A DNA stretch of 24,056 nucleotides from the IMG/VR virus record IMGVR_UViG_3300042934_000767, positions 1 through 24,056 of that record; one strand, given 5' to 3'. Each line of letters starts with the position of its first letter. Positions within the stretch are counted from its first letter, which is position 1. This document shows positions 6,028-11,190 of this stretch, piece by piece. The notes under the pieces were generated by a model, which was not told the DNA's origin, did not search any database, and was given only the letters and a program-made list of their open reading frames with translations. The position numbers and the translations under genes were made by a program. This DNA is from a virus.

Positions 6028-6470
6028 TGGCCGACATCACCGACGGCGCGACCGGAGAGCTGCGCCTCTCCCCCGCCGAGCTCGCTGTCCGCGAGATGCT
6101 CGCGATACCCTCCGGCCTCTACGGCTCGCCGATCAACCCGACGACCATCGACCAGATGCTCATCGACATCGCGGACCTGATCGAGCACATCGCTCAGGTG
6201 ATCGTGGTCCTGTACGAGGACCGCCACCGCGCTGAGGAGGCGTACGAGGGCCGGTTCGCCGACCTGATGGTGATGCACGCCGGAGAGGGCGCCGTGCTCG
6301 CCCGTCAGTTCGCGATGGCGAAGACGCGTGATGAGCGGCACCAGCTGAACCTCGCGAAGGAGAAGCTCCGGTACGCCGAGGAGATGCAGAAGGCGGTCCA
6401 GAACCGCAGCTTCGGGCTGATGAACATCGGCAAGCGGATCACCTCAGCTTTCGGGATGGTCCAGCGATGA
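6027..6470 (+). CDS. Hypothetical helical phage protein
   Basis: The 147-aa product starts at 6027 in a TGATG overlap and ends in an ATGA overlap with the HNH gene. It is mostly helical: IDQMLIDIADLIEHIAQVIVVLYEDRHRAEEAYEGRFADLMV, then a charged segment with KTRDERHQLNLAKEKLRYAEEM. No Cys cluster, signal peptide or catalytic motif is seen. Its place just after the exonuclease and annealase suggests a recombination or replication accessory role, but that is context only. Confidence 0.7.
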   Translation: MADITDGATGELRLSPAELAVREMLAIPSGLYGSPINPTTIDQMLIDIADLIEHIAQVIVVLYEDRHRAEEAYEGRFADLMVMHAGEGAVLARQFAMAKTRDERHQLNLAKEKLRYAEEMQKAVQNRSFGLMNIGKRITSAFGMVQR

Positions 6471-6895
6471 GCGTCGTGGAGATCCGGACGCCGGCGCGCG
6501 TCGGCAACCACCGCCGGGTGCCGTGGCACCGCATCCAGATCACTGCCGGGTGCTGGCTGTGGACCGGGCCGGTCTGGAAGGGCTACGGGAAGTCGTCCGG
6601 CACGACCGCGCACCGGCACGTCTGGCTCGCGCTCGGCCGCATCATCCCCGCAGGGCTGGAACTCGACCACCTGTGCCGGGTGCCGTTGTGCGTGAACCCG
6701 CACCACCTCGAACCCGTCACCCGGGCAGAGAACGCCCGCCGCCGCGCGCTCGCGTTGGTCACGTGCATCAACGGGCACGACTACACGCCCGAGAACACCT
6801 ACATCCGTCCCGACGGGAACCGCGACTGCCGAACCTGCATCCGCGCACGCGTCGCGAAGTACCGCCGCACCCACCAGATCGGAGCAGCAGCGTGA
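6467..6895 (+). CDS. HNH endonuclease
   Basis: The 142-aa protein matches the HNH_3-type nucleases common in actinophages. Motifs in order are CWLWTGPVWKGYG, AHRHVWLALGRIIPAGLELDHLCRVPLCVNPHHLEPVTRAENARRR (the Asp-His, Asn and His of the beta-beta-alpha-metal site), and a second Cys cluster (CINGHDY...CRTCIRARV). Such proteins are free-standing homing nucleases or nicking enzymes of replication or packaging; the role here is unknown. The stop TGA (6893-6895) is part of TGAACG, a hexamer repeated at the start of the gene at 7269. See the insertion at 6893-7275. Confidence 0.88.
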   Translation: MSVVEIRTPARVGNHRRVPWHRIQITAGCWLWTGPVWKGYGKSSGTTAHRHVWLALGRIIPAGLELDHLCRVPLCVNPHHLEPVTRAENARRRALALVTCINGHDYTPENTYIRPDGNRDCRTCIRARVAKYRRTHQIGAAA

Positions 6896-8856: not shown

Positions 8857-8993
8857 AGAACCTGCCACCGGGCGCCGCCCCGGATACCCAGCCCCACGAG
8901 CAGCGGATGCCGTGTCGTCCGTCGTGCTGCAAGACCCCGTACATGTGCGCCCGGAACAGGGCGTGCGACTGCCACCGAGAGGAGAAGCGATGA
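8853..8993 (+). CDS. 46-aa Cys-rich peptide
   Basis: It starts at GTG 8853 (GTGA overlap) and ends in an ATGA overlap with the next gene. Six Cys in 20 residues (CRPSCCKTPYMCARNRACDC) plus a His nearby suggest a compact metal-bound or disulfide-linked fold. The coupling on both sides and the dense Cys pattern support it as real. No family is recognised. Confidence 0.58.
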   Translation: MKNLPPGAAPDTQPHEQRMPCRPSCCKTPYMCARNRACDCHREEKR

Positions 8994-9364
8994 CCACTAC
9001 AGCGGTCTTCGAGCAGATCCGCGAGCGCGACGGTGGCTTCTGCCTCCTGGTGCTCCCTGGGTGCCTCGGAGAGGGCAACGTGCCACACCATCGCGCGAAC
9101 CGCGGCTCAGGCGGCTCGAAGGTGCTCGACGATCCACGCGTGCTGGCGCTCGCGTGCTCGATCTGCAACGGGCGCGCGGAGGACGCGAGTGCCATCGTGC
9201 GCGCCGATCTCATTCGCCGTGGCCTTCGGGTCGAGAAGGCAGCGACGAACGCGCAGACGCTCCAGCGGTGCATCGACACGCCCGTGGAGTACCTCGACGG
9301 CGATCGGTTCTATCTCGTGTCCGCGACCGAGCGGCGACACATCAGCGAAGGGAGGCCGTCGTGA
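8990..9364 (+). CDS. HNH-like nuclease
   Basis: The 124-aa protein has the layout of a compact HNH fold: RERDGGFCLLVLPGC, then GNVPHHRANRGSGGSKVLDDPRVLALACSICNGRAED. The His-His pair, RGxGG, the later Asp/Asn-like positions and the second Cys pair match the beta-beta-alpha-metal arrangement, although the third catalytic residue is uncertain. It lies directly upstream of the replication initiator (GTGA overlap), where phages often encode nicking or Holliday-junction nucleases. It could alternatively be a zinc-binding protein without activity. Confidence 0.6.
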   Translation: MTTTAVFEQIRERDGGFCLLVLPGCLGEGNVPHHRANRGSGGSKVLDDPRVLALACSICNGRAEDASAIVRADLIRRGLRVEKAATNAQTLQRCIDTPVEYLDGDRFYLVSATERRHISEGRPS

Positions 9365-10074
9365 GGATCCGCAGCACCAAGCCGGAGTTCTGGCGTTCGG
9401 AGCGCGTCGCGTCTGTCGACTGGCACGCGCGGCTCGTACTCAAGGGGCTCGAGTCGTACGTCGATGACAACGGCGTCGGCAAGGACGATCTCGCTCTGAT
9501 CTGCGGCGACCTGTTCATGCGCGATCTCGCTCGCGAGCCTTCGCGAACCCTCGCGAGGGTGTCCGAAGGCATCACCGAGCTTCACGCGGCCGGATTGCTC
9601 CACCGATACGAGGGCGGCGGCACGTCACTGCTGTTCCTGTCGTTCTGGGAGTCCTTCCAGCGGGTCGACAAGCCGCAGCCGGGAAGAATGCCCAGGCCGG
9701 ACGGCACTTTCAACTACAAGGATTCGCTGATTGGTGAGTCCCTCGCGAATGTTCGCGAGGCTTCGCGAAAGGTCGCTCCTGGAACAGGGGAACAGGGGAA
9801 CAGAGGAACAGAGGAACAGGGGAACAGTGGAGCAGAGGGCGCAGCCGCGCCGCTCTCCCCCTTCTGCTCGAAACACCCCAACGGCACCGAAGATCCATGC
9901 CGAGCCTGCGGCACCGCTCGCACCGCGTACGAGCTCGCGGCGAAGACGGACCGGTCCAAGCCGACGCCGGTCCCGTTCACGGTCCTCCCGGGCACGATCT
10001 GCCTCGAGGGCATGCACAAGCTGCTCGCCGACGGCACCTGCACGATGTGCACCTACCGAGCGGAGGTCGCCTGA
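9361..10074 (+). CDS. Phage replication initiator / replisome organiser
   Basis: The 237-aa product begins MRIRSTKPEFWRSERVASVDWHARLVLKGLESYVDDNGVG, the hallmark opening of a large family of actinophage replication proteins with a winged-helix N-terminal domain. RVSEGITELHAAGLLHRYE and LLFLSFWESFQRVDKP follow. The C-terminal part has two Cys clusters (CSKHP...CRACGTARTAYEL and CTMCTYR) that may load a helicase. The start is GTG 9361, in a GTGA overlap. The gene itself carries two arrays of TCGCGA sites and a run of octamer repeats (see separate entries), as expected if the origin lies inside the initiator gene. The octamers are not a multiple of three, so any change in copy number would frameshift the C-terminus. 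Confidence 0.78.
   Translation: MRIRSTKPEFWRSERVASVDWHARLVLKGLESYVDDNGVGKDDLALICGDLFMRDLAREPSRTLARVSEGITELHAAGLLHRYEGGGTSLLFLSFWESFQRVDKPQPGRMPRPDGTFNYKDSLIGESLANVREASRKVAPGTGEQGNRGTEEQGNSGAEGAAAPLSPFCSKHPNGTEDPCRACGTARTAYELAAKTDRSKPTPVPFTVLPGTICLEGMHKLLADGTCTMCTYRAEVA
9530..9557. repeat. Iteron array A (three YTCGCGAR sites, 10-bp period)
   Basis: CTCGCGAG, TTCGCGAA and CTCGCGAG begin at 9530, 9540 and 9550. Each is a perfect 8-bp palindrome and the spacing is exactly ten bases, about one helical turn. Because ten is not a multiple of three, the repeats are not a protein repeat; they encode different residues (LAREPSRTLAR). This suggests binding sites for the initiator encoded by the same gene. 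Confidence 0.6.
9742..9769. repeat. Iteron array B (three YTCGCGAR sites, 10-bp period)
   Basis: CTCGCGAA, TTCGCGAG and TTCGCGAA begin at 9742, 9752 and 9762, again at exact ten-base spacing, with a degenerate TCGCTC at 9773. The array lies 212 bp after array A and directly before the octamer repeats. Two arrays of the same core at the same period within one gene are unlikely by chance. Confidence 0.62.
9781..9836 (+). repeat. Octamer tandem repeat (GGAACAGN x6, plus one degenerate copy)
   Basis: Six consecutive copies of GGAACAG plus one variable base run from 9781 to 9828, followed by GGAGCAGA. They encode a low-complexity GTGEQGNRGTEEQGNSG linker in the initiator. The unit is relatively A-rich against the GC-rich surroundings and adjoins iteron array B. 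It could be part of an origin, or a slippage-prone tract: gain or loss of one unit would shift the reading frame. Confidence 0.85.
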
Positions 10075-10412: not shown

Positions 10413-10696
10413 GCGCTCCCAAGATCGGCAGCTACACGCCGAAGGAACTCAAGGACACGGTGTACCTGCACCTGCGTCCGAAGGCGTCATGGAACGGAAC
10501 CCTCGAGGGGATGACTGTGATCAAGGCGGCGAAGTCCACGGACGCCGCCGTCACCCCGGGCGACTTCATCGTGAAGCTCGAGGTCACCGTACCGGCCGCG
10601 TTCTTCATCGAGGCCATGCCGTCGGCTCGAATCACGCTCGACTCGGGGCAGATCGTCCCGGTCGAGTTCGAGCAGCAGACGGAGGACGAGAACTGA
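10409..10696 (+). CDS. Hypothetical protein upstream of SSB
   Basis: The 95-aa protein is coupled to the HTH gene (ATGA) and to ssb (TGATG). The sequence alternates polar and hydrophobic residues ([27 protein letters not shown], then [27 protein letters not shown]), suggesting a small beta-barrel or sandwich. It ends in an acidic tail. Genes just before ssb often encode SSB-partner proteins, but no family is recognised here. Confidence 0.65.
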
Positions 10697-11190
10697 TGGC
10701 TGGCGAGACCGTGATCACCGTCGTCGGCAACCTGACCGCCGACCCCGAGCTGCGCTACACGCAGAACGGCCTCCCTGTCGTGAACTTCACGATCGCCTCA
10801 ACGCCGCGCATCCGCGAGCAGACCGGCGACGCAGGGAAGGACGGCGACCCACTGTTCCTCCGCGCCTCGGTCTGGCGCGAGTTCGCCGAGCATGTGGCCG
10901 GTTCGCTGACGAAGGGCATGCGCGTCATCGCGCAGGGCCGTCTGCGTCAGCGCTCGTACCAGGACCGCGAGGGCAACCAGCGCACCGCGATCGAGCTGGA
11001 GGTCGACGAGATCGGCCCCTCGCTCCGGTACGCGACCGCGCAGGTCACCCGCGCCGCGGCGTCTGGCGGGGCTCAGCGCACGAACGCGCCCCAGGCGGCA
11101 TCGGAGGAGCCGTGGCAGACGCCAGGCGCTCAGACGGCCACCGACGCGTGGGCACCGAGCGGAGGGTTCGGCGATGACACTCCATTCTGA
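10696..11190 (+). CDS. ssb: Single-stranded DNA-binding protein
   Basis: The 164-aa protein has the bacterial-type OB fold: [29 protein letters not shown], then [65 protein letters not shown] disordered Ala/Thr-rich linker follows, with the acidic tip GGFGDDTPF, close to the DDIPF tip that binds host replication proteins. It coats single strands during replication and recombination with the annealase and exonuclease encoded upstream. The start is in a TGATG overlap, and the 3' end overlaps the next gene by 17 bases. Confidence 0.95.

Follow-up and report, generated by a model that had tools for sequence, protein, structure and literature searches.

Helically phased TCGCGA arrays and a GGAACAGR repeat inside a phage replication initiator gene as a probable replication origin

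Two arrays of palindromic TCGCGA sites lie inside the coding sequence of a phage replication initiator gene and are followed by a tandem repeat of the unit GGAACAGR. The arrays are phased at the helical repeat, are conserved as DNA, and are unique to the initiator gene in the full-length records tested. Their sequence features point to initiator-binding iterons of a phage replication origin embedded in the initiator gene, a reading to which we assign a probability of about 85%, and the combined layout of arrays and repeat, shared by hundreds of phages, very probably marks where these phages begin DNA copying. The DNA analysed is positions 1-24,056 of IMG/VR record IMGVR_UViG_3300042934_000767, and this whole 24,056-bp stretch is referred to as the window; feature coordinates are listed in Table 1.

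Table 1. Features of the initiator region, in window coordinates.
Feature	Coordinates	Strand	Description
Replication initiator gene (supported assignment)	9361-10074	+	237 aa, GTG start; PHROG 2149
Putative iteron array 1	9530-9557		YTCGCGAR at 9530, 9540, 9550; codons 57-66
Putative iteron array 2	9742-9769		YTCGCGAR at 9742, 9752, 9762; codons 128-137 (linker)
Degenerate fourth copy of array 2	9773-9778		TCGCTC, in the 10-bp register
Tandem 8-bp repeat	9781-9836	+	Unit GGAACAG six times without change, eighth base variable (9781-9828)
Single-stranded DNA-binding protein gene	10696-11190	+	PF00436, E 6.8e-27; PHROG 44; downstream, replication module

The initiator gene and its surroundings

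The preliminary description of this DNA named the gene as a replication initiator, and that assignment is supported by a match of residues 1-188 to the PHROG 2149 profile 'replication initiation protein' (E 3.6e-67), by a winged-helix model of the N-terminal domain, and by an enterobacterial relative that lies upstream of 'replication protein P'. The protein consists of the winged-helix domain (about residues 1-100), a linker, and a short Cys-rich C-terminal part. An AlphaFold2 model is confident over the winged helix of residues ~1-100 (mean pLDDT about 97 over residues 20-90) and places the helix of residues 60-76 in the recognition position; beyond residue ~100 it is mostly disordered, and the region encoded by the tandem repeat is disordered with low pLDDT. 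The C-terminal part (window 9862-10074) contains paired Cys/His motifs (PFCSKHPNG..CRAC and ICLEGMH..CTMC), and their sequence suggests zinc binding, in replacement of the DnaT domain of relatives.

The neighbourhood encodes a serine integrase, YqaJ, a single-strand annealing protein and SSB, then terminase and portal, and by its gene content is the replication and recombination module of a temperate phage, whose prophage integrates given the serine integrase. Profile searches with the ORF next to the initiator gene gave no match to lambda-P or to any PHROG. Two HNH-endonuclease-like ORFs (6467-6892 and 8993-9361) are close to the initiator gene, with matches to PHROG 826 / Pfam HNH_3 and to PHROG 740. 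Homologues of the initiator gene are variously annotated as helicase, HTH protein, RepA-like initiator, primosomal protein I or hypothetical protein.

Arrays and repeat within the gene

All six YTCGCGAR sites of the preliminary description are present, and their TCGCGA cores stand three to an array at 10-bp steps (9531-9556 and 9743-9768). Array 1 is situated mostly over the N-terminal half of the predicted recognition helix, which is thus partly encoded by its own presumed binding sites. Where the window has the degenerate fourth copy, TCGCGC is the commonest sequence among homologues. Chance alone gives many single TCGCGA sites in DNA of 67% GC (34 in the window, about 27 expected), so the signal is in the phasing and not in the number of sites; there are zero 10-bp-step triplets elsewhere in the 24,056-bp record. 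The initiator gene has 6 sites forming 4 adjacent pairs at 10 or 11 bp, and 5,000 synonymous shuffles with the protein held fixed gave a mean of 0.77 sites and 0.03 pairs, with a maximum of 2 pairs and not one reproduction of the observed arrays (0/5,000). The earlier assertion that the pattern is not imposed by the protein is borne out by these shuffles, as well as by the use of all three codon phases across the family (see below).

The extent originally given to the feature, 9530-9769, takes in both arrays and is too short, since the degenerate fourth copy and then the GGAACAGR repeat follow array 2. The repeat went unmentioned in the preliminary description, and it is the most DNA-conserved part of the gene. 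It begins directly after array 2, occupies linker codons, is purine-rich on the coding strand, and is extended to 9836 by a degenerate seventh unit, GGAGCAGA. Among 171 interior units from homologues found by protein search, bases 1-7 are variant at only 6 of 1,197 positions, each time in the third place of a codon. The eighth base may be G or A whichever codon position it occupies, even where the amino acid changes, and this pattern of a base that varies in all phases beside seven that hardly vary indicates that the constraint acts mainly at the DNA level.

The tract is 85% purine and, in absolute terms, GC-rich and not AT-rich. Its duplex stability is at a local minimum, ranking in the lowest 4% when compared with 40-bp windows within 1 kb (median over 110 relatives), and the tract thus shows the trait of lambda-type origins of having an easily melted, strand-asymmetric tract beside the iterons. 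On these sequence properties it is a candidate unwinding or helicase-loading tract.

Distribution across the initiator family

Homologues were found by tblastn in 371 phage records, the majority from phages of Mycobacterium and Gordonia, and by protein search at 79 viral-contig loci. The preliminary description had counted homologues lacking the phased sites, with the origin mapped elsewhere, as evidence against its reading; instead, two TCGCGA arrays recur in the same places, the first at about +160-210 and the second at about +360-410 relative to the start codon, in nearly all homologues with at least ~40-45% protein identity. In 15 full-length phage records, Brujita included, TCGCGA triplets occur at one place each, and so does the repeat. 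The direct homologues are the actinobacteriophage proteins called 'replication initiation protein' or 'RepA-like replication initiator', such as Brujita gp63 and Gordonia phage Lamberg gp62 (73-78% identity in the N-terminal two thirds). Their genes have the same arrays and repeat where checked (locus L017 is the Brujita locus), although the cis elements are without annotation in those records.

The exact 10-bp spacing first described holds in the window and gives way in the family to steps of either 10 or 11 bp. In 73 non-redundant genes the distance to the next TCGCGA is 10 bp in 95 cases and 11 bp in 141 (236 in total); other distances are 21-22 bp (26 cases, with one site skipped), 32 bp (4 cases) and 12 bp (once), and distances of 6-9 bp are absent. 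With sites distributed over the three codon phases as 176/143/101, this spacing places the arrays on a helical grid and not on a codon grid. Synonymous conservation among homologues, which the preliminary description proposed as a check, is raised over both arrays: where residues agree between loci collected by protein search alone, codon identity rises from a background of 0.55 to 0.68 over array 1, 0.72 over array 2 and 0.91 over the repeat, values that were reached by 504, 76 and 0 of 20,000 background resamplings for array 1, array 2 and the repeat respectively. An alternative definition of the site, as the inverted repeat between neighbouring palindromes (CGA-N4/5-TCG), was tried and not adopted, as the half-sites past the array ends are indecisive.

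Diverged members carry other motifs in place of TCGCGA, at the same places and on the same grid: CCGGAA (L032), TCAGTG (L059, L065, L067), TCGGCG/CGCCGA (L195, L249) and TGCGCC (L297). Some diverged members are without a clear phased hexamer. Array 1 coincides with the recognition helix in the actinobacterial branch only and is elsewhere in the gene in other branches, and the notion that it always lies on that helix is therefore rejected.

In close family members a short tandem repeat on the coding strand nearly always comes directly after the arrays. Across 197 non-redundant family genes there is a clear tandem repeat by our criterion in 148 and no clear one in 49; the unit contains GGA on the coding strand in 138 of the 148, and its period is mostly 8 or 7.

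The association also emerges from DNA-only scans of sequence collections; these scans overlap, may miss near relatives of the window, and have figures that refer to the matches listed. Three TCGCGA sites at 10/11-bp steps were found in viral contigs at 103 loci, among the matches listed, and 85 of these are in ORFs with the family domain, as against none of the 21 loci with control triplets at 8/9-bp steps. Three units of GGAACAGR occur in at least 119 viral-contig stretches. Membership of the surrounding ORFs was judged by an HMM that leaves out the repeat region, and at 114 of the 118 places examined, among the matches listed, the ORF has the family's N-terminal domain; one of the other four (L115) starts inside array 2 and is, from its sequence, probably a truncated member. 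The reversed GGAACAG repeat pattern occurs in only 7 viral contigs.

New members found with the phased TCGCGA scan belong to phages of other host groups (GC 0.37-0.71) and have two TCGCGA arrays followed by different repeats, e.g. GGATCAA, GGGATCA, GGACCAA and GGAAG. This led to the prediction that a 7-bp repeat, GGATCAR, also marks such genes, and in a fresh DNA-only scan 72 of 87 GGATCAR places, among the matches listed, are in the family. A phased TCGCGA triplet is also present at L403 within an ORF of different appearance (begins MAKQGLSYYQAETDRF, GC 0.48), which may represent another phage initiator family on the same grid.

In bacterial genomes 40 of 114 GGAACAG places, among the matches listed, are in the initiator family, nearly all of those in Actinobacteria; many others are minisatellites, and the idea of GGAACAG as a general bacterial origin mark finds no support. 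Minisatellites of GGAACAGR unrelated to the initiator gene occur in Viridilinea contigs (L208, L217, L246 and others), Hormoscilla and Saprospiraceae. A 24-kb contig filed under the betaproteobacterium Rugamonas rubra (L271) has an actinobacterial-type gene with TCGCGA arrays and the GGAACAG repeat, reflecting either contamination or transfer.

A model of the origin, related systems and alternatives

We propose that the N-terminal winged-helix domain binds the palindromes, whose 2-fold symmetry suggests a dimeric initiator. With copies 10-11 bp apart, bound initiators would be on one face of the DNA and could form a packed filament, and a loop or bridge may bring together the two arrays, which lie about 180 bp from each other. 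Such a filament or bridge would strain the adjoining GGAACAGR tract, whose duplex is weaker than the DNA around it and whose strands differ strongly in purine and pyrimidine content, and the tract would open to provide an entry point for the replicative helicase. Its 8-bp period (7 bp elsewhere) is off the helical repeat, which fits single-strand reading better than double-strand sites, and its unit is far more constant than the palindromes, which fits a factor that reads single-stranded DNA; the reader could be a conserved host or initiator surface. Recruitment of the helicase machinery would fall to the C-terminal part, as indicated by its DnaT-like nature in several relatives and the P neighbour.

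Repeats of the GGANCA type take the 8-bp form GGAACAGR in actinobacterial phages and the 7-bp forms GGATCAR or GGACCAA elsewhere. More tentatively, and with a good deal less confidence than we place in the iterons, these repeats may constitute a class of origin element not described before, in which a conserved replication factor reads a single-strand track in steps of 7-8 nt.

By analogy, the best reading of how the layout works is a lambda-like origin, with palindromic iterons and then a purine-skewed unwinding or loading tract. In the lambda origin, four 19-bp iterons form a single cluster, and the tract is AT-rich. In both systems the initiator gene contains repeats, and behind them lies a tract that is strand-asymmetric and less stable, and the comparison with lambda drawn in the preliminary description is strengthened by the conservation of the arrays across homologues. 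Unlike lambda, there are here two arrays of 6-8 bp palindromes on a 10.5-bp helical grid, one of them inside the codons of the DNA-binding domain, plus a G/A-rich tandem repeat of 7-8 bp. The Pfam lambda-O profile does not match the initiator at E up to 5. A further likeness to lambda comes from the enterobacterial relative (L436, in a Klebsiella phage and E. coli prophages), which has TACCGT/TACGGT sites at 11-bp steps and then GGGATCA repeats, encodes a DnaT domain (PF17948, E 3.4e-15), and in E. coli genomes is directly upstream of 'replication protein P' (lambda-P).

The RepA_N initiator of pSK41 likewise has a winged-helix N-terminal domain and repeated sites inside its gene, where four Rep boxes located centrally within rep are bound by that domain (PMC5703833). 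The best VIA-align rows for the initiator model are the staphylococcal RepA N-domains 4pql, 4pt7 and 5kbj (Z 7.1 to 6.2). The top row, 4pql (Z 7.1, 85 residues, rmsd 2.9), is a middling match with a score near those of unrelated winged helices; that a family is missing from this list does not count against it. The systems differ in that pSK41 has four Rep boxes in the linker as against two arrays here, with no GGANCA repeat reported there, and the Pfam RepA_N profile does not match the initiator at E up to 5. Foldseek gave no match to the initiator model at E below 0.001, and a family-profile sequence search of solved structures gave none. The RepA proteins of the mycobacteriophages Miko, Rachaly and Jeeves have the same database product name, and their origin was inferred to be within or next to repA, with no repeats reported there (PMC7157519). 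Miko RepA, studied experimentally (Wetzel 2020), has no match to the family HMM (hmmsearch --max, E up to 100), and membership of the same family is rejected; Miko repA contains neither TCGCGA nor GAACAG.

Several other explanations merit consideration. One keeps the arrays as iterons and takes the GGAACAGR tract to be only a flexible linker (EQGNRGTG) and a recombination seam before an exchangeable C-terminal domain. The C-terminal parts do differ widely past the repeat (protein lengths 191-353 aa), and the linker encoded there is disordered with low pLDDT; however, selection on the DNA exceeds selection on the peptide, and in other host groups units of other periods (7, 8) and other peptides serve at the same place, so that we consider this account unlikely. 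It is hardly credible that the protein sequence (SR/AR/RE motifs, the EQGNRGTG linker) or GC-rich codon usage produces the patterns as a side effect. TCGCGA is indeed frequent at 67% GC, and GGAACAG minisatellites exist in unrelated bacteria such as Viridilinea, but the shuffles with protein fixed and the use of all codon phases refute this for the arrays, and in the repeat it is the eighth base that varies, even when the amino acid changes, whereas synonymous bases elsewhere in the unit hardly do.

The arrays might alternatively be operators through which the initiator or another regulator represses its own gene, with replication starting elsewhere. Palindromic sites suit dimeric repressors, and the top winged-helix matches in Foldseek are Fur/ArsR-type regulators and TubR. 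The sites are nevertheless 170-410 bp inside the gene and not at its promoter, no second set is found near another promoter in the full-length records, and operators do not need the GGAACAGR tract to which the two arrays, at near-constant separation, are coupled; we regard this as quite improbable, while autoregulation could be an added role of the arrays. A partition site made of the arrays or the 8-bp repeat recalls RedRock, whose parS sites repeat an 8-bp motif eight times in direct orientation (PMC7157519), and the centromere binders TubR and AspA are among the fold matches. But the window encodes a serine integrase and the prophage integrates, and the elements track the initiator family across many hosts although parS needs no initiator, leaving partition with very little probability.

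A literature search, with subscription journals mostly outside it, gave no description of the arrays or the GGAACAG element, and no mapped origin was found in the literature for any phage of this initiator family, which has members in sequenced phages of mycobacteria and Gordonia, numbering in the hundreds, and in further host groups. If the arrays are the initiator-binding iterons of an origin, the layout gives a precise origin location for each phage, visible by eye and to a simple DNA pattern, and corrects the scattered gene names of helicase, HTH protein, primosomal protein and hypothetical protein. Practical uses would include origin cassettes for actinobacterial vectors and the marking of replication modules in metagenomic contigs. 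The arrays also offer a clean case of a cis element overwriting coding sequence, partly that of predicted recognition-helix codons, and the natural palindrome swaps (TCGCGA, CCGGAA, TCAGTG, TCGGCG, TGCGCC) are material for studying how initiator specificity changes. Should GGANCA-type repeats prove to be a distinct origin element, it would be transferable among phages from different host groups and would stay near constant while iterons and initiator specificity change around it.
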